Part shown: positions 1,179 to 19,449 of the stretch, in pieces
How positions within the stretch are numbered: the first letter of the stretch is position 1
Layout: the number at the start of each line of letters is the position of its first letter
Assembly (NCBI RefSeq): GCF_963675165.1
Contig: NW_026986603.1
Span: forward strand, 1-20,381
Origin: Halichondria panicea
Taxonomy: Eukaryota > Porifera > Demospongiae > Suberitida > Halichondriidae
Length of the DNA stretch: 20,381 nucleotides
Direction of reading: 5' to 3'
Notes under the pieces: model-generated
What the model saw: the letters and a program-made list of their open reading frames with translations, nothing else
Told to the model about the DNA's origin: nothing
The model's database searches: none
Made by a program: the position numbers and the translations under genes

Positions 1179-1556
1179 ATGGTTGACATAGACTACGAGA
1201 AACTACTCACCGAGTACCCTTTCCTTACCTACTTAATATACGGAGGTAACGAGTATATTGGTGTGATTCAGAATGTAGACGATATATTAACCACAATGTA
1301 CGATTATGGTGCGCTGAACAATTTAGAAGAAAAACAACACTTCCTTGCATTAGCTGATACCTGGTGGTGGGAAAGCAACAGACTAATACCAATTAATGTA
1401 TTCTTAAAAACAGAGTGGGCTCCGTTCAAGATGATAGTAAAAACCATGAACAGTAAGGATGTGGACATCAAATTTGGTCCACACATTAGCCTTAAATCAA
1501 TAGCGTCCAAACGTACAAAGCGTAGAAGTATTACTCTTGTGCGGAAATTAAGTTAA
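1179..1556 (+). CDS. Conserved T4-like marine phage protein of unknown function
   Basis: 125 residues and the only plus-strand gene in the window. It has the look of a real soluble protein: an acidic N-terminal half (VDIDYEKLLTEYPFLTYLIY), a central DTWWWESNRLIPINVFLK block, and a basic C-terminal tail (KSIASKRTKRRSITLVRK). I recognise this layout (WW-ESNR-IPIN, NSKDV, basic tail ending LVRK) from conserved hypothetical proteins of T4-like cyanophages, but know no function. A perfect late promoter lies upstream at 1132-1139, so late expression is likely. Its 3' end overlaps the 3' end of the minus-strand DnaE-like gene by 26 bases. The basic tail may bind nucleic acid (inference). Confidence 0.75.
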   Translation: MVDIDYEKLLTEYPFLTYLIYGGNEYIGVIQNVDDILTTMYDYGALNNLEEKQHFLALADTWWWESNRLIPINVFLKTEWAPFKMIVKTMNSKDVDIKFGPHISLKSIASKRTKRRSITLVRKLS

Positions 1557-2109
1557 CATTTACTACTACCAAATGCGAATAACTGATCGCATGTGCTTTC
1601 TTGAAATAGTAACTATCATCTGTAGGTTTCTCCCACACAGTCTTTTCAACTTCAGCCCACGGCTTGCCTATTAGGTGACGTTTTGCAGGACGTATAACTG
1701 CCAAAAACATTGCTAACTTTTCTATTGTGTTTACTGCTTCTGGCATTTTTATCAACGTGTCGTAATGATTGCCTATGTGTATCAGTTTACTGCAGAAGTC
1801 TTTGTCATATAAACATTCCCAGGCTGGTTCTTGTGCTAGTAATTGATCCAGGTGTTGTTCGTTGCGTACTTCAGTGTATAGACCAAGATTCAGCATGTCT
1901 ATCTTCATGTACCCACGATCCTCTGCTACCTTGTGATCTATACTGGCGTATCCTGTAAACGGGTCCTCGGGTGTATCTGTCACGTAAACACCTGTGTTGT
2001 GTTTTACATATTCGCCGTTGCGCAATATCACTGCCGGAGTGTGCGGGAACAGTTCAAGCACTGTGTCTCTATCTCCTACATCAATATCAATATCACTGGT
2101 AAACTTCAT
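1531..2109 (-). CDS. Miniature DnaE-like (DNA polymerase III alpha core) protein
   Basis: 192 residues starting at the ATG of an ATGA overlap with the upstream gene; an 11-residue longer start is possible but less likely. Several DnaE landmarks appear in the right order. SDIDIDV at 5-11 matches the PDxDxDF palm motif (D8, D10). HNTGVYV at 37-43 matches the GVHAGGV-type motif. KIDMLNLGL at 69-77 matches KFDFLGL, with D71 as the third metal-binding Asp. LAVIRPA at 136-142 matches the ALFRPG fingers motif. FKKAHAISY at 169-177 matches FNKSHSAAY. Normal DnaE is about 1,100 residues, so the PHP, thumb, most of the fingers and the C-terminal domains are gone. Whether it can polymerise is unknown; it might be a reduced polymerase, a nucleotidyltransferase or a decoy. 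The motif order makes homology likely; activity is inference. Confidence 0.65.
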   Translation of the reverse strand: MKFTSDIDIDVGDRDTVLELFPHTPAVILRNGEYVKHNTGVYVTDTPEDPFTGYASIDHKVAEDRGYMKIDMLNLGLYTEVRNEQHLDQLLAQEPAWECLYDKDFCSKLIHIGNHYDTLIKMPEAVNTIEKLAMFLAVIRPAKRHLIGKPWAEVEKTVWEKPTDDSYYFKKAHAISYSHLVVVNVNLISAQE

Positions 2110-2786
2110 AATCCTGCTTCCTGTAACAGGTGCTTGCACCACTCTACATCACCCATGTAGTCAGTAAATTTTCTATTCCAGTAGTCAGGGTCGATCCAGG
2201 GGAGTATAATAGCAATTTGATCATCTGCAAGACTAGATAACCAATCCACGCCGGAAACACAATTAAACACAATCCAAGGACTAATGCGCCCGGTACTGAT
2301 ATGATGACAAATCCTATTAGCATTACCATACCGAAAATAGTCTTGGAATCCCGCAAGTCCCGAACCGTTGCTTGCATAATCTTCCATGGTTTTAAGAGCA
2401 CGTTCAAGAGCATCTTGTACTGCCTCCTTTTTTAAATATTCACGCATCCACTCATCATAAAAAACATCTTTTGTCCAGTAGTCCAGTTTCTTGTTGTTTT
2501 TCAATAACCAGGTTGTGTAGTTTTGTATGTTGAGGCATTTGATGTTGACACAGTGCCTGCCAAATTTTACAAATGCCTTGTAGTATGGACTGGTTACAAA
2601 GTCTGCAAAACTTTTGTTTTTGGCACTGCCCTGTGTTGTTTCAAAGAACTGTAAGTAAGCTCTAAGTCCAAACTGCACACCTGTTTCTTTTTCTTCCTGC
2701 CAACGTCGCTTGGGCTCGCAAAGATGAGCCGCAAGTGTTGATTCCTTGCGATAACTTTTGTCGCAATACTTACAGGTGTAACTCAT
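2106..2786 (-). CDS. C2H2 zinc-finger conserved phage protein
   Basis: 226 residues. The N-terminus, YTCKYCDKSYRKESTLAAHLC at residues 3-23, has CxxC and a distal HxxxC, i.e. a C2H2/C2HC-like finger. The rest is helical and rich in W and Y: SFADFVTSPYYKAFVKFGRH, KLDYWTKDVFYDEWM, then GRISPWIVFNCVSG and a C-terminal DPDYWNRKF. The same overall arrangement (finger, YYKAFVKFG, ISPW) occurs in conserved hypotheticals of T4-like marine phages. It likely binds nucleic acid through the finger, but no biochemical role is known to me. Its stop overlaps the DnaE-like start (ATGA) and its start overlaps the 3' end of the SGNH-like gene by 17 bases, so the three are probably co-translated. A strong sigma70-like promoter lies about 240 bases upstream. 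Confidence 0.7.
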   Translation of the reverse strand: MSYTCKYCDKSYRKESTLAAHLCEPKRRWQEEKETGVQFGLRAYLQFFETTQGSAKNKSFADFVTSPYYKAFVKFGRHCVNIKCLNIQNYTTWLLKNNKKLDYWTKDVFYDEWMREYLKKEAVQDALERALKTMEDYASNGSGLAGFQDYFRYGNANRICHHISTGRISPWIVFNCVSGVDWLSSLADDQIAIILPWIDPDYWNRKFTDYMGDVEWCKHLLQEAGL

Positions 2787-3504
2787 GTTTTCTTATATAT
2801 GTTTCCAAATAATTGTTCAACCACCCATGTGCGCCTGGCAAGCGATGTCGTAGTTCTGGTTCAACATGTTCTTCGTCGGATATGTATGGTACACCTGCTC
2901 GATGTTGTTCTCTAACTGCACACCACTTAAAATCACCTATGATATTTTTATGTCCTTCTAGTAGACGTACCCTGTTGACCTCTTCAGGTAACACACCTCC
3001 CCACCAATGGTCTGCTTGTTGAAATATTATACAACTATGTCCTCGGTGTGTCAAACTATCAATTAATGACAACATTTGATACATTAAATTTTCTGTTCTA
3101 TCAACTAGCGAATGTTTTTCGTATCGTTCTCGAAACAATACCCACTGCTTGGTTTCCCATTCGTTCCAGTCTGCTACCCATCTATTCTTGCCAAACTGTT
3201 GATTTTGTGGATTTGACCATGCACCTTCCCAAACTTCTTTCTCTGTATGTTCTGCTGGGTCATGATGACAAATAGGAAGTTCTTCTCTGCTAACAAATGT
3301 CATACCCAACACATACAAAGTTTTTTTGTTCGTTTCGTAGCTGTGTTTCAGTGTTGTTCTTATAATTCTACTGTTGGCGCTACCCGTGATGCTTAAACTA
3401 TTACTGCTCGGTATCTGTAGAGCTTGTGCCAAGTCAGCATGGCCGTTGCCTTCGAAGTAAGTCTGCATGTAACTGCAACCATTGATAACCAATTCAGTAA
3501 TCAT
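2770..3504 (-). CDS. SGNH/GDSL-hydrolase-like protein
   Basis: 244 residues. It opens with a strand followed by VINGCSYMQ (S11 as candidate nucleophile, block I). GSANSRIIRTT at 41-51 supplies the Gly and Asn positions of blocks II/III. Near the C-terminus RLPGAHGWLNNYLETYI provides a candidate catalytic His (about H226) before a final helix. This order suits the SGNH fold, whose members deacetylate or hydrolyse sugars and lipids. The substrate is unknown; acyl groups on surface glycans are plausible given the LmbE deacetylase and second SGNH-like gene nearby. The long middle section (DPAEHTEKEVWEGAW to KNRWVADW) has no recognised match. The start overlaps the stop of the upstream gene by 4 bases. 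Confidence 0.6.
   Translation of the reverse strand: MITELVINGCSYMQTYFEGNGHADLAQALQIPSSNSLSITGSANSRIIRTTLKHSYETNKKTLYVLGMTFVSREELPICHHDPAEHTEKEVWEGAWSNPQNQQFGKNRWVADWNEWETKQWVLFRERYEKHSLVDRTENLMYQMLSLIDSLTHRGHSCIIFQQADHWWGGVLPEEVNRVRLLEGHKNIIGDFKWCAVREQHRAGVPYISDEEHVEPELRHRLPGAHGWLNNYLETYIRKHELHL
3026..3054 (-). promoter_or_regulatory. Perfect sigma70 consensus TTGACA-17-TATAAT inside the SGNH-like gene
   Basis: On the minus strand -35 TTGACA (3054-3049) is separated by 17 bases from -10 TATAAT (3031-3026), an exact match to the bacterial consensus. It lies in coding sequence and would start a transcript about 240 bases upstream of the C2H2-finger gene and the DnaE-like gene. It lacks the CCAAAA spacer box of the phage's three early promoters. 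Function is unproven, but a perfect match is rare by chance. Confidence 0.45.
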
Positions 3505-3962
3505 TTGAGTGCGTCTCGGATCTTTTTATCTTCCCAACCGTTTGACTTAGCTAGTTCTTTAAGTTCTTTCTTGTCGCTAATTTCTGCCAGTGTTTCTAAG
3601 TCTTCATCTGTGTAGTCTGGATAGAAGTTGCGCAAGAACTTAACCACTTTGTTATTGCTTTCACGTTTCTTTTGTTTGATCCATTCATGCCTATGTGTGC
3701 CCATGCCTGGACTCACAGTTGTTGCCAACAACCATTGCAGTTCTGGATACTTGCTTAGGTCGAACCAATTCTTGTTTAGTCTTTTATTACAACTCATCAA
3801 GTAATAACTCTGTAATTCGGCACTGCCACCTACTGCACTACCCCAGCGGATCATGAGGAAGTTGCTGAACTTTTTGCGTTCTTCGTCTGTAAGTTCACTA
3901 TAGAATGATCTATTCTTGAGATCAAACTGTTTCATTTCATAAAATATGTCTAGTTTGTTCAT
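3501..3962 (-). CDS. Probable clamp-loader small subunit, gp62-like
   Basis: 153 residues. The pattern resembles gp62 of T4-like phages: an FLMIRWGSA block, a helix YYLMSCNKRLN followed by FDLSKYPELQWLLATTV, a Gly/Arg-containing turn (SPGMGTHRHEWIKQKKR) where gp62 proteins have PRGKRYGKW or RRKRFSKW, then two C-terminal helices ending KELAKSNGWEDKKI. gp62 works with four gp44 AAA subunits to load the gp45 sliding clamp, which also activates late transcription. gp44 and gp45 are not in this window, although in T4 the genes are adjacent. Assignment is by pattern and length only. Stop and start overlap both neighbours by 4 bases (ATGA). Confidence 0.5.
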   Translation of the reverse strand: MNKLDIFYEMKQFDLKNRSFYSELTDEERKKFSNFLMIRWGSAVGGSAELQSYYLMSCNKRLNKNWFDLSKYPELQWLLATTVSPGMGTHRHEWIKQKKRESNNKVVKFLRNFYPDYTDEDLETLAEISDKKELKELAKSNGWEDKKIRDALK

Positions 3963-4255
3963 ACTGGGTGATGCATTACGGGTCCGTTGTCATCTTTCTT
4001 ACTAAGTTCATACAGTACTTTAGCACGTTCTAGTGCTTCTTGCAAGGCGGGATTGTCCTTTGCGGCTTCAACTATTTTGTGCCAGTAGTGCGACTCTTGT
4101 ATCCAATTGTCCACTGGGTATGTTCCTATTAATACCCTTTTGCTGTTTGCTTGTCCAAGTGGTCTACCCCATATGTTACCATATGTGTCATTTTCGTAAA
4201 TGTATTTGGTTCCTGTTTCTGTGGCTTCCCATTCAATTTGATCTTTTGGATCCAT
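3959..4255 (-). CDS. Small protein of unknown function
   Basis: 98 residues, not recognised. The N-terminal half is strand-like and aromatic (TGTKYIYENDTYGNIWGRPL), followed by GTYPVDNWIQESHYWHKI and an amphipathic helix of about 25 residues (DNPALQEALERAKVLYELSK). There are no membrane segments and no metal motif. The start lies 23 bases inside the end of the LmbE-like gene and the stop overlaps the gp62-like start (ATGA), so it is translated as part of the operon. Compact size, good codon structure and overlaps at both ends support a real gene. Confidence 0.65.
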   Translation of the reverse strand: MDPKDQIEWEATETGTKYIYENDTYGNIWGRPLGQANSKRVLIGTYPVDNWIQESHYWHKIVEAAKDNPALQEALERAKVLYELSKKDDNGPVMHHPV

Positions 4256-4805
4256 CTGTGTATTTCCTTGCAGGTTCTGTAACTATGTATCTACCAGTTA
4301 GCCTATCCCGGAAGCCCTTGATAACTTCGCGATGCAGTGGTAAATCTTCTAGCCCATAGTCAGGCGAAGCACATTCGTAGTTGGTATTGAACGTACTAGC
4401 AAAATAAACTTGCGGTATATCTATATCTTTAACACAATCATGCACAAACTTGTGATGTAGGTGTCCGTAGTCACCATCCTCGTTATGTGTGAGTATCAAC
4501 TTGTATCCTTGTGTCAGGTATTGTATTTTTTCTCTTGCTTCTTGGCCGTCAAATCCCAACTCGCCACGCTCCACATAACTGTAGTCATCGCGGTTGCCAA
4601 GGAAATAAGTATCAATATTGCGCTTGCGCCAAAACGATCTTACTTCGCGAGCCCTATCATCCTTGTCAAAATAGGTTAGGTACATTATGTCCCATTCGAA
4701 TCCAGTATGATTATGCAGGAACGGATACCCAAATATAATACAATCATCTGGGTGTGCTACTAGTAGTAATGCTCTACCAGCACTTGGAATAGTCAACGAT
4801 TTCAC
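4233..4805 (-). CDS. PIG-L/LmbE-family deacetylase
   Basis: 190 residues with the family hallmarks: strand LLLVAHPDDCIIF, where AHPDD at 17-21 binds the catalytic zinc (His18, Asp21) and holds the general base Asp20, and a distal THNEDGDYGHLHHKFVHD at 106-123, whose GHxHH supplies further metal ligands. Members remove acetyl groups from N-acetylglucosamine in GlcNAc-PI, mycothiol, bacillithiol and lipopolysaccharide-type substrates. In a phage it may modify a host or virion sugar, or act with the C-methyl and heptose pathway encoded to the right. The start lies 32 bases inside the preceding gene's end. The family is clear; the substrate is unknown. Confidence 0.85.
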   Translation of the reverse strand: MKSLTIPSAGRALLLVAHPDDCIIFGYPFLHNHTGFEWDIMYLTYFDKDDRAREVRSFWRKRNIDTYFLGNRDDYSYVERGELGFDGQEAREKIQYLTQGYKLILTHNEDGDYGHLHHKFVHDCVKDIDIPQVYFASTFNTNYECASPDYGLEDLPLHREVIKGFRDRLTGRYIVTEPARKYTDGSKRSN

Positions 4806-5277
4806 TCTGTCTTGAAATATCTTTTACAAAATATGCACACCTTGGTTTTTGTACATTTGTTTCCAGCGGTATAGCCAACATTTGACCCGGACGTAATTTA
4901 GGAAAATACCATTTAACATCTTGATATATGTCCATAACCTCTATAGACTCAAATTCTGGTCTATAATCTGTTAGTGGATTGAACAAGAATGTACTGAATC
5001 CTCTATCGTTAATACTAGTCAACGGAACAACTTCAAGGTCTCCTACATCTGGTTCTCCGATTAGCACTTGCCAATCCACAGGCATTTTTATTACACTTTC
5101 GCCAATGCGTAATACCAGTGCTGGACTGTTGAATGATTCCAGGAAGATCAGTGGTATGTAGAAATAATCAGGGTTACGGGGATCACTATTATCCAACACA
5201 GCAAAACGCATGTCATCAATTTCTTCTGGTATTTCATTAATCTCGTATGCTACGTTATCTAGTGTTAATATTCTCAT
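4774..5277 (-). CDS. Conserved T4-like marine phage protein, unknown function
   Basis: 167 residues, all-beta in appearance and acidic. Distinctive blocks are EEIDDMRFAVLDNSDPRNPDY, IPLIFLESFNSPALVLRIG, LTSINDRGFSTFLFNP and VKWYFPKLRPGQMLAIPLE. These resemble conserved hypotheticals from T4-like marine phages, where no function is established that I know of. No catalytic motif is evident. It overlaps PRMT-like gene's stop by one base (TAATG) and its own 3' end runs into the LmbE-like gene, so it belongs to the same leftward operon. Confidence 0.65.
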   Translation of the reverse strand: MRILTLDNVAYEINEIPEEIDDMRFAVLDNSDPRNPDYFYIPLIFLESFNSPALVLRIGESVIKMPVDWQVLIGEPDVGDLEVVPLTSINDRGFSTFLFNPLTDYRPEFESIEVMDIYQDVKWYFPKLRPGQMLAIPLETNVQKPRCAYFVKDISRQSEIVDYSKCW

Positions 5278-6266: not shown

Positions 6267-7074
6267 TTATTTTAAACCTGTCTCTTATAATGTTCACATA
6301 TCTATCAGCTAGGTACTCTTGGCTTTGTTCCCCACCGTGGTAACCTGGGTCTTCGCCTGAAAACGGATACTCATTTGTAGCATATGCTGGTGTATCCTCA
6401 AAGTCCAAAGTTAAACAACGATCGGGTATACTCCAAGGAAATTCATCACGCACAGTTGTACTGTCGTATATGTTGCAAGCCACTAGCAAGAAAGGAATGT
6501 TCGCATGGTGTAATCTAAATATACCATCACTGATAATGTATCTATCCTGTTGTAATTTCCAATTGTTGTCGTACATGTAATTGATGTACTGCTTTACTGC
6601 TGTTGCTGTATTCTTGTCCAACTTTTGACTACGGTAATGATGATCATAGTTTTCTGCTAAACTGAAAATAGTTTCTGAAATCATCCTGTAGTTGTTGTTG
6701 CCCCAGTTAATATTGTTAACTCCTACCTTGGGGTCATAGCCAGTGCCGTGATCTGTTTGCAGGTGTTGCTGTAGGTCACTGTTCCAACCTTTGTTTTCGT
6801 TCTTGGGTGCTACATAAGGTGCGGCCCCTCCTGGTATTTCCATCCTGTCATGAAATGTGGGTGCTACTATAGCAAAGTCTGGCTTTTGGCGTAGTATCTC
6901 ATCTATCATTACACGTATGCCGCCATTGCTCATGCCCTGACGTGCCAAGTGTACCAAGTCCCAATCCAATTTAGCCGCTAGTTTTTCGCCCCAACTGGTT
7001 CCTACTAGTGCAGGGTCTGTACTGGGCGCACTGAAACTGCACCCTGTGATCATTAGTTTTTTTCTTATTGCCAC
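6259..7074 (-). CDS. Second SGNH/GDSL-hydrolase-like protein
   Basis: 271 residues. Block I is LMITGCSFSAP (S13 candidate nucleophile). LARQGMSNGGIRVMIDEIL gives the block II Gly and an Asn (N50). A strand PDFAIVAPTFHDRMEI follows. Near the C-terminus GEDPGYHGGEQSQEYLADRY gives an Asp/His pair (D242, H246) for block V. The overall layout parallels the other SGNH-like protein in this operon (2770-3504), but sequence identity is low beyond the motifs. It may act on an acylated or sulfated sugar; the substrate is unknown. The start lies 10 bases inside the end of uvsW. Confidence 0.6.
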   Translation of the reverse strand: MAIRKKLMITGCSFSAPSTDPALVGTSWGEKLAAKLDWDLVHLARQGMSNGGIRVMIDEILRQKPDFAIVAPTFHDRMEIPGGAAPYVAPKNENKGWNSDLQQHLQTDHGTGYDPKVGVNNINWGNNNYRMISETIFSLAENYDHHYRSQKLDKNTATAVKQYINYMYDNNWKLQQDRYIISDGIFRLHHANIPFLLVACNIYDSTTVRDEFPWSIPDRCLTLDFEDTPAYATNEYPFSGEDPGYHGGEQSQEYLADRYVNIIRDRFKIND

Positions 7075-8519
7075 TTTGTTTTCTCCACAGCAAACGGATA
7101 GTTTGCATCTCGATAGAATGCTTTACGTTTGGTTAAGTGTCTTTTTGCGAACTTGCAGGTACTGGTTATATCCCAGATCTGCACGAAGTCTTTGTCTTGG
7201 GCTTTACGAATGCCCCGACCAATGCTTTGAATAACACGTACAAAACTCTTACCAGGTTCAATGAGAACAAGATTAAAAATACGGGGAATGTTAATACCAA
7301 CACTAGCAACACCGTAAGTGGCGATAATGATCTTGCCTTCTGCTTCTGCCACTTCATCATAGTGTTCTTTTCTTTCTCCGGCTTTAGTTGATCCTGATAC
7401 AAATACACTGTCTGGTAGTCTTCCGGCTAGTTCTTTACCTGCGGATATTCTGTCTACTAGAATAAGTGTGTTGCCTGACTCATTAATAGTACTTATCAGT
7501 CCACTGATGTAGTCTAAACGTTCTTGATTCTCCAGCAAATACTTTAGTTCGCTTTGATAGTTTGTATACTCTGTATGATCCACAAGTTGTACAACATTAA
7601 CATGGCACATGGCCAAGTGTCCTGCTTCCTGTAGTTCACGTGCGCTTAGTTGCCCTACTACTGAACCTAAGTTGCAGAATATGCTCATGTACTCAAACTG
7701 TTCTTTGGGTATGGTGCCTGTTAGTCCCCAACGTATAGGGATACGACTCATTGGTCCACTCAGTAATGTTTTAAGTGCGTCTGCTTTAGCACCGTGTACC
7801 TCATCAACAATAACACCCACTACACCTTCCAAGAACTCACCAATGGTAATGTCTGCTTCTGCGTTCCTGGTTTGTTTCAGCATGTTGTTGAGACTTTGCC
7901 AAGTACATATGGTATGCACACGACCAAACTCTTTTCTATCACCAAAATAAACACCAACATCCAAGTCCAAGTTATCAAAGTCTTCTTCGGTTTGCGTGAC
8001 CAAACTCTTGTTAGGCACAATAACAATAGTACGACCGTACTCACTAACCTTGTCAGCAAGTGCCGCTGTCATTATGGTTTTACCTGCGCCTGTTGCTACT
8101 TCTTGCACACACTGCGGATTCTTCAAGAAGTTGTTTACCAACTCAACTTGATAGTCCCTTAGTTCAATAGGCTCACCCACTTTAGGATGATTCTTGGGCC
8201 ACGCCTTATGCGAATAACTCTGTTCATTTACTTCTGTAAAGTCAAACTTGGTCCTGTAGTCCCTGAGGTCTTCCACTTCAATATCATATCCTTGTTCATC
8301 AAGATATGGAAGTATCTCTGGCAATAGATTAATGTATGTGGTCCCGCCAAGATTAAAGAATGGCACTTTACCATCCCAACGTCCTAATCTAACTGCTGGT
8401 TGATAACGTGCGCCAGGAACATCAAACTTAAACTTGCGCACCAATGCTGTTCGGGTGCCCAATTCTAGTCCTTCGATCTTTACATTAACTTCATCTTTGA
8501 TTATTAACTTGGCTTGCAA
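7065..8519 (-). CDS. uvsW: UvsW-type SF2 DNA/RNA helicase
   Basis: 484 residues with a probable TTG start at 8519, chosen because AAAGGAAAAT lies just upstream and the product then begins, as UvsW does, right at the small N-terminal DNA-binding domain (QAKLIIKDEVNVKIEG, then VPGARYQPAVRLGRWDGKV). No ATG is available without deep overlap into the upstream gene. Helicase motifs: Q-type RDYQ, Walker A ATGAGKT (142-148), DEVH (239-242), LTGT (266-269), QSIGRGIRK (431-439). UvsW unwinds branched DNA and R-loops, drives fork regression, and in T4 switches replication from origin-dependent to recombination-dependent mode. It is adjacent to a HARP-like protein. Confidence 0.9.
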   Translation of the reverse strand: MQAKLIIKDEVNVKIEGLELGTRTALVRKFKFDVPGARYQPAVRLGRWDGKVPFFNLGGTTYINLLPEILPYLDEQGYDIEVEDLRDYRTKFDFTEVNEQSYSHKAWPKNHPKVGEPIELRDYQVELVNNFLKNPQCVQEVATGAGKTIMTAALADKVSEYGRTIVIVPNKSLVTQTEEDFDNLDLDVGVYFGDRKEFGRVHTICTWQSLNNMLKQTRNAEADITIGEFLEGVVGVIVDEVHGAKADALKTLLSGPMSRIPIRWGLTGTIPKEQFEYMSIFCNLGSVVGQLSARELQEAGHLAMCHVNVVQLVDHTEYTNYQSELKYLLENQERLDYISGLISTINESGNTLILVDRISAGKELAGRLPDSVFVSGSTKAGERKEHYDEVAEAEGKIIIATYGVASVGINIPRIFNLVLIEPGKSFVRVIQSIGRGIRKAQDKDFVQIWDITSTCKFAKRHLTKRKAFYRDANYPFAVEKTKWQ

Positions 8520-8520
8520 T

Positions 8521-9678
8521 CTATTTTCCTTTGTATGTATTGTACACTTCTGCGGCAAAGAACACAACCTTTTCAGCACGTTGTAGCAATAAAGTTTTTT
8601 CTGCACCATGCATCATGCCAGCACTGGTCACCAACAGTGGAATATCCTGTGGCCAGTGTGAGCGGTATTTGGTAAAGTAAACAACCTTTTTGCCTGTTGT
8701 GTCGATAGGTTCATTATCGCGTGGTGCGAACAGTACATCCTCTTCATTAAAATAACCTAACACAAACTTGTCTCGTAGTCTATTGCTGAGGTCTGGTTCG
8801 TACACATAGATAGGAAACCTATTGCTTACTTCAGCATACACAAACAACTGGTCCAATACTTCTTTTTCTATGTCTGGATTATACCTTGTGTGATTGTGCC
8901 TTAGCAAATTATAAAGTCTAGTAGATTTGTACCTGCTGATAAACAAATCTTCAACTGTTGGACTTATGGCAAAATAACATATGGCAGCAAGGTCAACAAT
9001 TTTTATTAAATTGTCAATTGTTATATCCCCTGCCTTTTCCTGTACAAACTCCAACAACGAGTCGGGTGCATTCACAAGGCTAAGTTTTTCATCTACCATG
9101 TCTAACTCAATACCATATGGTTGCACTTGCTGTATTTTTTGTTCAATCTCCAAGGTCCTGGCATCTATTTCAAAGTTATTTTCTCTTGCCAACTGTAACA
9201 CAGTAATAAAGTTTGGTTCAGTTAGTGCAATATGCCATTGCTTTTTGTTATCGTTTTCAAATCTCCAACTGCCTTTGCTTTCTTTACACAAGTCCCTAAC
9301 CAAATCTACTATCTTTGGTTCAAAACTAAACTGCAATACTATGTGGTCCTGTTCTATCCACATCAGTCTCCTGCGATCTATAGAACGTAGTTGCATTCTA
9401 TACTGCGGTGATTCAACAGGACCAACGTCTATGCCTAGGTTAGCAAGTTGCCGCTGATACTTTAGTATTAGTTTGCATGCCAATTCTGCTTGTCTGTCTG
9501 TGAGTGCAATTCCGCTACGCACACCAGTTGCCATGCTGTTGATTACTCTAACATCATATCTAGCCAAACTGATAACAGGATCGATCCTACCAAATATACC
9601 ATAGTACTGATTGGTTGCAGGATCTTTATCACCGTTGATAATTTCTAAGTAATCTTCTACATGTGGGAATTTTCGCAT
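8521..9678 (-). CDS. HARP-like-domain protein next to uvsW
   Basis: 385 residues from the ATG at 9678; a GTG at 9696 would add six residues, and neither has a clear ribosome site. An N-terminal part (ALTDRQAELACKLILKYQRQLANLGI) resembles segments preceding the helicase core in some phage ATPases. Residues 118-180 in the longer numbering (DHIVLQFSFEPKIVDLVRDL, KGSWRFENDNKKQWHIAL, ITVLQLARENNFEI) follow the pattern of the HARP domain of SMARCAL1 annealing helicases: F-Y-p-lv--ik-l, W, W-ipl. The C-terminal half (VYFTKYRSHW, PLLVTSAGMMHGAEKTLLLQ) has helicase-like strands but no Walker motif. I infer a DNA-annealing or fork-binding partner of UvsW. Stop to TTG start spacing is one base. Confidence 0.5.
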   Translation of the reverse strand: MRKFPHVEDYLEIINGDKDPATNQYYGIFGRIDPVISLARYDVRVINSMATGVRSGIALTDRQAELACKLILKYQRQLANLGIDVGPVESPQYRMQLRSIDRRRLMWIEQDHIVLQFSFEPKIVDLVRDLCKESKGSWRFENDNKKQWHIALTEPNFITVLQLARENNFEIDARTLEIEQKIQQVQPYGIELDMVDEKLSLVNAPDSLLEFVQEKAGDITIDNLIKIVDLAAICYFAISPTVEDLFISRYKSTRLYNLLRHNHTRYNPDIEKEVLDQLFVYAEVSNRFPIYVYEPDLSNRLRDKFVLGYFNEEDVLFAPRDNEPIDTTGKKVVYFTKYRSHWPQDIPLLVTSAGMMHGAEKTLLLQRAEKVVFFAAEVYNTYKGK

Positions 9679-14364: not shown

Positions 14365-14426
14365 ACAAAAATACCTCGACTATTAATTCCTACGCCTTTC
14401 TCTACAAAGCCTTCTAGTCTAGTCAT
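14361..14426 (-). pseudogene. Truncated duplicate of the cupin 5' end (21-codon mini-ORF)
   Basis: The ATG lies inside the last codons of the kinase gene. The product starts MTRLEGFVEKG, identical to the cupin's first eleven residues, then diverges (VGINSRGIFV) and stops. It is the 5' remnant left when the sulfotransferase-like gene entered between the kinase and the cupin. Its TGA overlaps the GTG start of that gene, so it may still serve as a translated leader. Confidence 0.75.
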
Positions 14427-14439
14427 TGACTAACCTACC
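14395..14439 (-). repeat. 45-bp direct repeat, copy B (end of kinase)
   Basis: Partner of 13226-13270 with two mismatches. It spans the end of the kinase gene and the beginning of the mini-ORF, and marks the right border of the inserted segment. Confidence 0.85.
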
Positions 14440-15177
14440 GTAGTGTCGTTCAATTTCTTCCAACTTGGGTGCATATACTCCTGTGTGCAGGATGGTGATA
14501 CTTGCGGCTTTGTTGGCAAATCCAATTGCTTTTCGTATGTCTTTGTCCTGTGTGTAGTTATAAGCAAAAGCCGCTAAGAATGTATCACCTGCTCCGCAAG
14601 CATCATGCGCCTCTACTTGCGGGCTGGGCACTTCAATTATACCACACTTAGCACCCAAGCTACCACGGGTTACAATATAATAGTTGTCGGGCTTGCTGAC
14701 TGCACGTTCATTTTCCAAACTGTTGACTTTTACAAAACATCCTTCAAACCGTTTTAGATCTGTTTTCTTACTGTCTACAAATACCGGACCGTTGTACTCA
14801 CGTCTAATAGTTTCGACTGTTTCATAACTGATGCTACCTTTGTTGTAGTCACTGATCACAACTGCATCATAGTCGTTGTAGTTTATACCTGCTAGTGTAA
14901 GCGGATCGCTGGCATGATCTTCATCTATACGCAACAGGTGTTGATTACTACGAACGTCAATATATCTAGTTTTGATACAGATCTTGTTACCATACCGTGT
15001 ATCCACTGTACACCCAAGTGCTTTTAAGTTCTCTGCCACGTTGGCTGCCATGCCAGGCAGTTCTTTTGTTTTGAACACTCCACTTATTACAGGCACTGGT
15101 GCTTCTGGACTCATGCGTTTTACTGTGCCGAAGTGGTAACGGTCTGTTGCTCGATCTCCAATTAATAGTATTTTCAT
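14419..15177 (-). CDS. Heptose-7-phosphate-kinase-like PfkB protein (HldE/RfaE1 kinase domain)
   Basis: 252 residues from the ATG at 15177 (the earlier in-frame start would lie in the preceding gene). MKILLIGDRATDRYHFGTVK and RMSPEAPVPV at 19-28 match the HldE N-terminus (VVGDVMLDRYW, SRISPEAPVPV). LPGMAANVAENLKALG corresponds to RPGGAANVAMNIASLG. SDYNKG precedes the active site, and DACGAGDTFLAAF holds the PfkB catalytic Asp and anion hole. It would phosphorylate D-glycero-D-manno-heptose 7-phosphate at C1 on the way to ADP- or GDP-heptose. The C-terminal nucleotidyltransferase domain of HldE is absent, and the kinase is shorter than usual (about 320). The ATG is two bases past the stop of the frameshifted GT gene's second frame. 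Confidence 0.8.
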   Translation of the reverse strand: MKILLIGDRATDRYHFGTVKRMSPEAPVPVISGVFKTKELPGMAANVAENLKALGCTVDTRYGNKICIKTRYIDVRSNQHLLRIDEDHASDPLTLAGINYNDYDAVVISDYNKGSISYETVETIRREYNGPVFVDSKKTDLKRFEGCFVKVNSLENERAVSKPDNYYIVTRGSLGAKCGIIEVPSPQVEAHDACGAGDTFLAAFAYNYTQDKDIRKAIGFANKAASITILHTGVYAPKLEEIERHYGRLVND

Positions 15178-15179
15178 GT

Positions 15180-15936
15180 TTAAAAATATGTTATGTTGTT
15201 TCGTGGAAAATAACATTCGTTATTTTGTAGTGGTTTAATTTTCATAGTTTCTAATACACTTGTCTTACCTAGTCCCATTGCTAAACTGTTAGGCTACACT
15301 TTGATTGCCTACAAACAAATCGGCACCTTCAATTACTGCGGCCATCTCTAGCATGTCTTTAACTTTGTAATGCTGTATAGGTCCAACCGTGTTAACAAAA
15401 TCTTCGTGTTCACCTTGGGTACCCAAGAAGATTCCAGTCTCTCCCATCTTACCATCATGGTACATTTTTTGCCACATAGCATCACCACGTTGTAAATCTC
15501 TATAGCGCATGGTACGATTAACCACAACAGGTGCTACTTTGTTGGATGCGGCTGTTAACCATGTATGATCATAATCCGACATCACAAAGTCAAGTTTGTG
15601 TGTAATGCACATGGCTTGAACATAGTTACCTTCAAATCCTCTGAACAGTACTCCCCTGAACTTGTCCAAGTCCACATCATGCTTGCCGTCCCAAACTACA
15701 ACATCGTCAATGTATGGTTGTGCCTTTAACAATGGTTCAAGTAGTTCATAATCTGCTAGTGTGAAACGACCTCGGTGTGCTTCATCTACTTCCTCAGGTT
15801 TATACGCATACTCACTAACACAATTTTCTATGTTGTAGAGTGCGATAGCAATAGTGCCTCCGCCCATGCGCTCCACAGCAAATAGGCTGTAGATCAAATC
15901 ACCAAATGTTCCTGAATGTTTATATACTTTGCTCAT
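15180..15936 (-). pseudogene. GT9-like glycosyltransferase gene interrupted by a frameshift
   Basis: The first 215 residues (15936-15289) run MSKVYKHSGTFGDLIYSLFA to AAVIEGADLFVGNQSVA and then hit TAA. A one-base shift after GCC reopens the frame as SLAMGLGKTSVLETM, about 35 codons ending NNITYF at 15180, exactly where the kinase gene begins two bases later. FVGNQSxxxSLAMGLGK is the usual C-terminal donor-binding stretch of GT9-like ADP-heptose transferase relatives, so the intact gene would continue. A single extra A (TAAC for TAC) explains the break. It may be a true inactivation, a recoding site or a sequencing error. It overlaps the upstream GT9 by 4 bases. Confidence 0.7.
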
Positions 15937-17904: not shown

Positions 17905-18245
17905 TTTTTATTTCCCTCACTGGATCATCCAGCAACTTGGCCATATGATTTTTCATTTGTATTCTTAGATTATTAAAGTCTCTTATTTCCAACGCCCTGC
18001 GTCCTATTTCTTCTAGGTCAACATTGTCCAACTTGCATTTTTTAAAATCATCTTCCAAGTCCCAAATGGAATTGTGAAGATCCACCAGTGCTGTTAACCA
18101 AACGGATATTTTCTCAAAGTCAAATTCTTTGAATTGTGCTTGATAAAAAATCCAGTTCTTCTTGATTTGCACCGTTGGTTCGCTGGTGTTTGACCTGTGC
18201 TATTGTGTATCTGTCTACCAGCTCAATCAGTGGAAACTTATACAA
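17897..18245 (-). pseudogene. Small helical glycan-cluster protein interrupted by a frameshift
   Basis: The first frame starts at a probable TTG (18245, after GAGGTGAGAG) and encodes FPLIELVDRYTIAQVKHQRT, NGANQEELDF before running out. The second frame, from about 18150 leftward, encodes FYQAQFKEFDFEKIS, LVDLHNSIWDLEDDFKKCK, EEIGRRALEIRDFNNLRIQMK, DDPVREIKNG. Together they make the usual 115-residue small helical protein seen in phage and bacterial sugar clusters (LVDR-TI---K, iW-LEd, iGrRAleIRd-N--R). The break lies in a run of six T (plus-strand A6, 18145-18150) where five would keep the frame. The distal 91 codons could also be read from a GTG at 18172. Function of the family is unknown to me. 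Confidence 0.65.
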
Positions 18246-19449
18246 CTCTCACCTCAGGAAAATATCTAATAAACTTATCGTTTGGGTTATTTCTCTTTGT
18301 TAGTATCTTTGCTTTGATCTCGTCAAAGAAGTTCCATGCAAGCGGTACAAACACAACCTTGTGATTGTCTGAGATGTTTTCTAATAGACTGTCCATGCTT
18401 ACTACGCCAATGTCTTTGCCTGGACTGTATGTGTTTTGTTTAAGTTTGTTGTCGTCAATGATTGCATCCAGTGTTGTTTCAACATAGTTTAAAAAAGTAT
18501 TACCTTTTGCAGCCGCGCCATATCCAATAGCAGTGTAGCCTTGATCTTGTAAATCAGTAATTGCTTTATCATATTGTTGAGCAATTTGTTTAGCACGAGT
18601 GGCCCACACTGAGTATATGTCGGGTGTGTACAGTTCTTTTTCAAGTTGTTTAAGGTTGTGTATGTGCTGTGGTCTGGACTGGGTAGCACTAATCACAAAC
18701 ACATAACTGGTCCCATGACATGGTGTTTTTACAACATCACACAAAAACAAACCTGCACGTTCACATAACTTTTGCATCGAGTTGATGTTGTAAAAGTTAA
18801 CATGTTCGTGGTAGATTGTGTCAAACTCCCCATTTTGCACCATTTCACTCTGACTTGTCTGTATAAACACATAACCCTTGTCTTTAATCAATGGCTTGAG
18901 CAACTTTAAGTATTCGTCAGGGTTAGGGTTATGCGCAAATGCATTTTGTGCTACAACAATATCAAATTTATTATTGCCGATCTGGTCAACTGCATGCTGG
19001 TCCCAAAAACCACAAATCATATCGTCTACTACACTGCTGTTGGTTGCATATAAGTTTTCTGCTGGGTCCACACCAAATGTTCTGTAGCCTGTTGCGCTGT
19101 ACATGCTTAATTGTGTACCGTCATTGCATCCAATGTCCAATACATTACCACGGGCTTTGCCCACATACTCCTGAGTCCAATCACAAAACCAACGCATGTA
19201 TTCTACATAGGTTTGACTAGTGCCGCTTACGTATGCGTAGTCTTTGTATATGATTTCTGGATCAACTACATCTGTTAATTGTAGATGATAACATTCAGTA
19301 CATCTATTAACTGCTAGTGGGTACAGTTCGTTTTGTCCTGGTTGCTTTAAGAAGTTGTTTGCCAGTGGTTGCAGACCTAAGTCCAGTGTTAACTCTAAGT
19401 TGTCACTACCACATGCAAGACACTTTGTGAGTGGTGTACAGTTTTGCAT
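18238..19449 (-). CDS. NDP-hexose C-methyltransferase (TylC3/NovU type)
   Basis: 403 residues, the usual length. N-terminal zinc domain: C10-x2-C13 and C50-x2-C53. SAM domain: NVLDIGCNDGTQL (102-114), GVDPA (126-130). IYHEHVNFY (212-220) is the family's catalytic HEH block. The C-terminal domain has AIGYGAAAKGNT (307-318) and IDDNKLKQNTYSPGK (331-345). These enzymes put a methyl group on carbon 3 (or 5) of a dTDP-4-keto-6-deoxyhexose, making branched deoxysugars. The 4,6-dehydratase-like gene two positions upstream would supply the substrate. It follows the glycosyltransferase-like gene by one base. Confidence 0.9.
   Translation of the reverse strand: MQNCTPLTKCLACGSDNLELTLDLGLQPLANNFLKQPGQNELYPLAVNRCTECYHLQLTDVVDPEIIYKDYAYVSGTSQTYVEYMRWFCDWTQEYVGKARGNVLDIGCNDGTQLSMYSATGYRTFGVDPAENLYATNSSVVDDMICGFWDQHAVDQIGNNKFDIVVAQNAFAHNPNPDEYLKLLKPLIKDKGYVFIQTSQSEMVQNGEFDTIYHEHVNFYNINSMQKLCERAGLFLCDVVKTPCHGTSYVFVISATQSRPQHIHNLKQLEKELYTPDIYSVWATRAKQIAQQYDKAITDLQDQGYTAIGYGAAAKGNTFLNYVETTLDAIIDDNKLKQNTYSPGKDIGVVSMDSLLENISDNHKVVFVPLAWNFFDEIKAKILTKRNNPNDKFIRYFPEVRVV

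Follow-up and report, generated by a model that had tools for sequence, protein, structure and literature searches.

The window analysed here, a stretch of 20,381 nucleotides, is the contig NW_026986603.1 (positions 1 to 20,381) of the assembly GCF_963675165.1 of the sponge Halichondria panicea. On its complementary strand (1531-2109, ATG start) it encodes an open reading frame (ORF) of 192 residues, which is a further member of the split minimal DNA polymerase III (Pol III) alpha subunit already known from jumbo phages (Iyer et al., 2021), and which we call half-C. We consider it probable (about 0.7) that half-C is one of the two subunits, the C-terminal one, of a minimal C-family DNA polymerase, in which the active site would be rebuilt together with a separately encoded protein, half-N, and which would be auxiliary to the family B replicase. 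Homology, the tiling of the palm by the two proteins, invariant catalytic residues, co-occurrence of the two genes and purifying selection were all computed, and it is from these that we infer binding, DNA synthesis and a role in the phage.

Iyer et al. (2021; Viruses 13:63, PMC7824862) described, in group 2.2 of the jumbo phages, a minimal Pol III alpha subunit split into two distantly encoded proteins, which in their account are likely to reconstitute the enzyme and were suggested as a model of its ancestral form. The window gene is no different in kind. The same source assigns Atu_ph07, a bearer of a half-C relative, to group 2.2. The Pol III alpha subunit reported as gp316 in Atu_ph07 (PMC6102473) and the truncated 172-residue protein reported in phage CBB (PMC5259590) each correspond to the N half only, and no experimental study of a split Pol III was found in the open-access literature. 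What we add is the exact position of the cut, counts of conservation and co-occurrence, models of both halves, the finding that there is no space for an intein at the cut, the presence of both halves in the 141-kb phage Slicko01, and larger DnaE proteins cut in the same loop. A first-pass annotation of the window, made from the sequence alone, had taken the ORF for a self-contained miniature of the DnaE core, and had known of no described function for such a polymerase in a T4-like phage. Neither claim survived: the ORF is one half of a split enzyme, the GxGRGS half of which (phrog_11127) is encoded elsewhere in the genomes of its relatives, and the split form is the one described in PMC7824862.

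The palm and trimmed fingers of half-C

The five DnaE motifs that had been read in the ORF are present in the order given, and their family is a real one. In a PHROG profile search the ORF matched phrog_11778, a family labelled DNA polymerase, with residues 4-190 (E 9.8e-63), and tblastn found half-C in 63 of 50,697 phage records, with at least 80% of the query covered in each. Among the matches listed (60 of 63) most are large phages, for example RaK2, GAP32, 121Q, PA5oct, Atu_ph07, SCTP-2 and XacN1. A first scan of IMG/VR gave 260 stretches encoding half-C relatives, and alignment-based scans gave at least 600 relatives for each half at E 1e-3, not all of which are necessarily of the split kind. 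Searches directed at DnaE itself returned less. Other PHROG links of half-C to DnaE were weak (E 0.0044-0.2), the single sequence had no match with E up to 1 in Pfam or NCBIfam and none with E up to 10 among PDB sequences, and a 14-sequence half-C profile matched nothing among the PDB sequences at E 1. Local profile-profile comparison against six aligned DnaE sequences gave a modest match (probability 57%, residues 36-142); a global run placed the N terminus of half-C wrongly across the missing thumb, an error that the structural alignment does not make. With the Pfam, NCBIfam and PDB sequence searches empty, the link to DnaE rests on the motifs, the weak PHROG matches, the modest profile-profile match and the fold.

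In E. coli K-12 DnaE the corresponding motifs are PDFDVDF (400-406), HAGGV (511), KFDFLGL (553), FRPGP (638) and FNKSHSAAYA (756). Since DIDID and KIDML of half-C line up with PDFDVDF and KFDFLGL, respectively, D6, D8 and D71 correspond to D401, D403 and D555, which we take to be the catalytic aspartates of E. coli DnaE, and D10 corresponds to D405. To assess conservation, 67 non-redundant half-C sequences were aligned, drawn from 90 proteins (80 viral loci, nine isolates and the window). D6, D8, D10, H37, G40, K69, D71, R140, P141, K143, H173 and Y177 were invariant in all 67. The viral loci were picked by six short peptide patterns, some containing the scored motifs, which favours conserved copies; all nine isolates, which tblastn retrieved with no pattern involved, keep the same residues (14-row alignment). 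The three metal-binding aspartates and the RPA and KAH motifs are thus conserved among orthologues, as the first-pass annotation had required, with one correction: it had numbered the aspartates D8, D10 and D71, where D6, D8 and D71 is right, D10 being equally invariant. The proteins are uniform in length (188-214 residues in the 67 homologues), and the pairwise ratio of nonsynonymous to synonymous substitution rates (dN/dS) was 0.063-0.133 in nine of ten pairs, dS being saturated in the tenth. Half-C is under purifying selection.

Half-C shares with bacterial DnaE and PolC (PF07733 and PF17657) the palm and fingers fold, the three aspartates and the HxxG, RP and KxHxxxY motifs in the same order, but it is one sixth the size, it has no PHP, thumb or OB domain and no tail, and the GxGRGS motif is found on another protein. 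No Pfam match to the PHP, thumb, OB or clamp-binding regions was obtained in half-C, and its length and motif spacing leave no space for them. At the position of the thumb about 80 residues are gone (motif spacing of 27, against 106 in E. coli DnaE). A further 88 or so are gone in the fingers (33 against 121), which means that the fingers of half-C are trimmed as well. The nucleotide-grip motif GxGRGS is not in the half-C chain, which in 67 of 67 sequences has 1-16 residues before the first aspartate: half-C begins at the strand of that aspartate and so lacks the GxGRGS loop of DnaE. The missing PHP, thumb and C-terminal domains had been listed correctly in the first-pass annotation, in agreement with the Pfam searches, the spacing and the fold, while the trimming of the fingers and the loss of the GxGRGS loop had escaped it.

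An AlphaFold model of half-C, built from 56 sequences, had a mean predicted local distance difference test score (pLDDT) of 90.5 and a predicted template modelling score (pTM) of 0.82. A Foldseek search with it placed eight C-family chains on top (E 1.3e-3 to 9.9e-3). With VIA-align, the 14 best rows were all C-family (Z 5.6-8.6) and the next row had Z 3.2; some rows are titled only "DNA polymerase" and are presumed here to be C-family, in part from their matching numbering. The model aligned to residues 969-1294 of PolC (3f2b, Z 8.6), 397-779 of the E. coli enzyme (2hnh, Z 8.0) and 417-806 of the M. tuberculosis enzyme (7pu7, Z 5.7). The predicted fold of half-C is that of a C-family (DnaE) palm with trimmed fingers, and not the non-palm fold that the first-pass annotation had named as the outcome that would tell against it. 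The fingers motif sits on a long helix (171-191) at the end of the model. Several records label half-C a putative membrane protein (for example at 7959-8609 of the examined stretch L086), and in GAP32 this label stems from a predicted transmembrane segment.

Half-N and its co-occurrence with half-C

The missing GxGRGS loop was sought with PF07733 in nine relatives that bear half-C. All nine isolates have a second gene with an above-cut-off match, which spans only positions ~16-98 of the profile; two more matches, one in GAP32 and one in Vibrio phage 2.275.O, fell below the threshold and were left out. The product, half-N, is ~170 residues long and belongs to phrog_11127, labelled DNA polymerase, in five of five copies scanned. 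GxGRGS was found in all eight isolate copies read, each of which ends soon after the motif. Among 81 distinct viral copies the protein ends 29 or 30 residues past GxGRGS without exception, and G139-R-G-S-S143 is invariant in a 56-row alignment drawn from them. Most of these viral copies were retrieved by a scan in which the GxGRGS motif itself was among the patterns, while the isolate copies were found by PF07733.

A half-N profile had no match among PDB sequences, and the local profile-profile comparison with the six-sequence DnaE alignment gave a probability of 93% over residues 122-170. In the half-N model (pLDDT 89.0, pTM 0.70), residues 72-171 align to 279-393 of the E. coli enzyme (4jom), 825-965 of PolC (3f2b) and 305-413 of 7pu7; all 15 structural rows were C-family (Z 7.4-11.6), the best Foldseek E value being 2.8e-2. 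In the ten entries that are aligned from residue 1 of half-C in both tables, the two halves are separated by a gap of 3 or 4 residues. As modelled, half-N and half-C between them cover the DnaE palm, which is divided at a single loop.

The two genes also travel together. Two tblastn queries with half-C matched 63 records each, 60 of each being listed, which together name 63 records. One tblastn query with half-N found it in 60 of these 63, or 61 when Slicko01, detected by PF07733, is counted, and conversely all 60 records of that half-N query also have half-C. Two other half-N queries (86 and 513 records, best 60 of each) also drew ordinary DnaE genes, and the pairing counts therefore rest on the one query. 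On large IMG/VR contigs (180-354 kb) chosen for holding one half, both halves were present in 9 of 11.

The first-pass annotation had placed the ORF in a T4-like phage with a replicase of its own, and this fits what was found: the relatives are large T4-related phages, with a family B polymerase in nine of nine related isolates and a family A polymerase in none of the nine. In RaK2, half-N lies about 33 kb from half-C. In both RaK2 and GAP32, half-C is found near the genes for UvsX, a DnaQ-like exonuclease, UvsW, gp61 and gp41, with UvsW about 3 kb upstream. In RaK2 and Atu_ph07, half-N is four genes away from the gp44 clamp loader gene. Slicko01, with both Pol III halves in a genome of 141 kb, has its family B polymerase itself in two adjacent genes (2491-5129 of the examined stretch L284).

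A two-chain active site and its alternatives

If the two proteins form one enzyme, the GxGRGS loop of half-N would grip the triphosphate of the incoming deoxynucleoside triphosphate, while half-C would hold the metals, through its three aspartates, and the templating base. The halves would dock through the cut palm loop, rebuilding a single nucleotidyl-transfer site; since there is no space for intein parts at the cut, this association would be non-covalent. The pair lacks a thumb and a clamp-binding tail, so that a weak, distributive enzyme seems likely, and we favour a small auxiliary polymerase of low processivity, which may work alongside the family B replicase in filling gaps, in repair or in extending primers. 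The DnaQ-like exonuclease found in several relatives could supply proofreading in trans. The grip on the nucleotide and the metal site would then reside on two small, separately encoded proteins, and the pair would offer a ready way to find out how small a part of DnaE is enough for synthesis. To our knowledge, it would be the smallest C-family polymerase.

Several observations weigh against this reading. With no thumb, PHP, OB or clamp-binding domain, the grip on DNA is unexplained, and the first ~70 residues of half-N fall outside nearly all structural alignments. Foldseek on its own is weak for both models (best E 1.3e-3 for half-C and 2.8e-2 for half-N), and the aligner warns that Z values below 8 (below about 13 for helical models) can mean a common arrangement; because of these low Z values, we put the weight on the fact that the C-family rows are pure and stand clear of the remaining rows. 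The pairing is not perfect either. PP728206.1, which at 109 kb is short beside the ~350 kb of most relatives, has half-C without a half-N match, and the remaining named record, Slickus01, fell outside the half-N check by name. Of the two exceptions among the large IMG/VR contigs, the 191-kb one carries half-C alone and the 289-kb one half-N alone. Among 12 IMG/VR half-C contigs of mixed size, half-N was found on the 338-kb one only, the 11 misses measuring 19-108 kb. Finally, the half-N of the window's own phage had no match in the 20-kb contig or in the rest of the assembly.

The missing domains invite the question of whether the pair catalyses anything at all. The halves could be a non-catalytic remnant that binds DNA in a structural or regulatory capacity within the family B replisome and synthesises nothing: the thumb, PHP and C-terminal domains are lost, the fingers are trimmed, and a family B polymerase is at hand in nine of nine relatives. 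Pseudo-enzymes usually lose some of their catalytic residues, whereas here the three aspartates, K69 and the H, R and K residues of the fingers are invariant in 67 half-C proteins, and GxGRGS is kept in 81 of 81 viral half-N copies (many of them fetched by pattern) and in the eight isolate copies read. We therefore regard a remnant as unlikely, if the most serious competitor. Conserved catalysis could also be directed at something other than templated DNA synthesis, as in a terminal transferase or an RNA- or nucleotide-modifying transferase of the same fold. The absent thumb, which would be expected to hold the primer-template, fits such an enzyme, and the palm fold is common to many non-polymerase proteins (PMC11646218). 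Against it stand the replication and recombination genes that neighbour half-C in RaK2 and GAP32, and the retention of RP and KxHxxxY. These fingers motifs are typical of C-family polymerases, and we rate the other transferase as distinctly unlikely.

The two remaining explanations concern the break itself, and we give each a negligible probability. Cyanobacterial split DnaE is cut elsewhere than the phage halves. It too comes from two genes (PMC3919608), but trans-splicing by a split intein joins its parts into one chain. That phage polymerase genes do get broken in this way is illustrated by MIJ3, a bearer of both halves, which has a putative split-intein PolB (PMC6892783). The ends at the cut contradict such joining of the jumbo-phage halves: 29-30 residues follow GxGRGS in 81 of 81 half-N copies, 1-16 precede the first aspartate in 67 of 67 half-C copies, and upstream in-frame starts would add at most 24 codons to half-C in the loci examined. 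Intein parts of the usual sizes are too large for these ends. A decayed gene or an assembly artefact, in which a full-length dnaE was broken, might be suspected since the window is a whole small contig in a 131-Mb assembly; it is refuted by the uniform length of the 67 homologues, by the low dN/dS and by the 63 phage records matched over at least 80% of the length.

Larger split DnaEs and the window locus

The palm loop that separates half-N from half-C is also cut in larger phage DnaEs, there between ..ERFL...R and PDIDxDF. In Tenacibaculum phage Larrie, DnaE is encoded by two adjacent genes (515 and 676 residues; phrog_13169 and phrog_12219), and the cut, at position 98/100 of PF07733, is in the loop cut in the jumbo-phage halves. 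Cellulophaga phage phiST, like Larrie a Cbastvirus, has a two-gene DnaE of the same type. A helicase gene separates the two halves in Bacteroides phage BS-TP1, where the C piece is not annotated and its frame extends as far as the end of the record; in the faecal contig MT835494.1 the halves are separated by ORFs that include an HNH endonuclease. Unlike the jumbo-phage halves, the proteins of Larrie, phiST and BS-TP1 are much larger (Larrie keeps the PHP and helix-hairpin-helix regions) and their genes are adjacent, or separated by the helicase gene of BS-TP1. The N pieces of all these larger DnaEs end in an extra tail. That of BS-TP1 weakly resembles PF14890, an intein splicing domain (E 0.0022; 18.3 bits, under the cut-off of 35.8); PF14890 was not matched by the N tails of MT835494.1, phiST and Larrie, and no NCBIfam intein model was found in the four N tails and two C heads. 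An intein nature of the tails is no more than suggested. The dnaE gene of Chryseobacterium phage MA9V-3 is unsplit. A match in Staphylococcus phage SA 1306 Kay was dropped, being an unsplit DnaE frame of 1,073 codons in an unverified record, probably host DNA. The profile phrog_21652 (476 positions) is matched by the N piece of Larrie at 26-69 and by its C piece at 70-443, and is possibly a short unsplit C-family core of intermediate size.

The larger halves, the weakly intein-like tail and the helicase or HNH genes between the halves may mean that the break in some Bacteroidota and gut phages is fresh. The putative split-intein PolB of MIJ3 is accompanied by an HNH gene (PMC6892783), and in the gut Jug phages DNA polymerase genes are reported to be often split by endonucleases (PMC12363816). 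Taken together with the Bacteroidota splits, these cases suggest that the cut derives from fracture by a mobile element, which argues against an ancestral split. It is tempting to speculate that inteins and homing endonucleases have repeatedly broken phage DnaE at the palm loop before the first aspartate, and that in the jumbo phages the element was lost, the halves were dispersed and they shrank to a total of ~370 residues. We offer this tentatively and would not ourselves bet on it; alternatively, the loop may simply be tolerant and have been broken twice. Were the former true, the split would be derived, contrary to the published ancestral-state suggestion. As the cut is common to larger phage DnaEs, the origin of the split is testable. 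A literature search returned no recognisable paper comparing the jumbo-phage split with the cuts in Bacteroidota phage DnaEs.

The features of the window are collected in Table 1. The window is one entire contig within an assembly of 131 Mb and 39 contigs, and the phage genes on it suggest that it is probably a stray phage contig.

Table 1. Half-C, its motifs and other genes of the window
Feature	Position	Strand	Evidence
Half-C, C-terminal half of split minimal Pol III alpha; predicted palm strands with catalytic Asps and trimmed fingers	1531..2109	-	ORF, phrog_11778, conservation, model, dN/dS
D6-D10 (DIDID), first two metal-binding Asps (D6, D8)	2080..2094	-	Invariance (67/67), E. coli motif positions
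H37-V41 (HNTGV), equivalent to DnaE HAGGV 511-515	1987..2001	-	H37, G40 67/67; profile-profile alignment
K69-L73 (KIDML), third metal-binding Asp D71 (= D555), K69 (= K553)	1891..1905	-	K69, D71, L73 67/67; profile-profile alignment
R140-P141 of the fingers, equivalent to DnaE FRPGP 638-642	1687..1692	-	67/67; profile-profile alignment
F169-Y177 (FKKAHAISY), fingers motif, equivalent to DnaE FNKSHSAAY 756-764	1579..1605	-	H173, Y177 67/67; F169, K170 66/67
Upstream gene, 226 residues, phrog_11058, C2H2-like N terminus	2106..2786	-	ORF list, Pfam and PHROG scans
Convergent gene, 125 residues, phrog_11637, no assigned function, overlaps half-C 3' end by 26 nt	1179..1556	+	blastp, ORF scan of viral loci
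UvsW-type helicase, 5 kb upstream of half-C	7065..8609	-	Pfam UvsW_N, ResIII
PIG-L-type deacetylase	4236..4805	-	Pfam scan
PfkB kinase	14422..15216	-	Pfam scan
C-methyltransferase	18241..19449	-	Pfam scan

The stop codon of the phrog_11058 gene overlaps the start of half-C by four nucleotides (ATGA), an arrangement from which the two are probably co-translated; the C2H2-type zinc finger at the N terminus of its product was detected at E 2e-4, under the Pfam cut-off. On the other side of half-C, the window has tail- or head-like genes instead of gp61 and gp41. The convergent phrog_11637 gene was found by blastp at the same place in eight of nine isolates, and of the 75 viral loci with enough sequence to judge, 73 have a convergent ORF of more than 80 residues there. 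The deacetylase, kinase and C-methyltransferase genes are probably sugar-modification genes. The phrog_11637 protein has a WWWESNR core and a basic, KR-rich tail.
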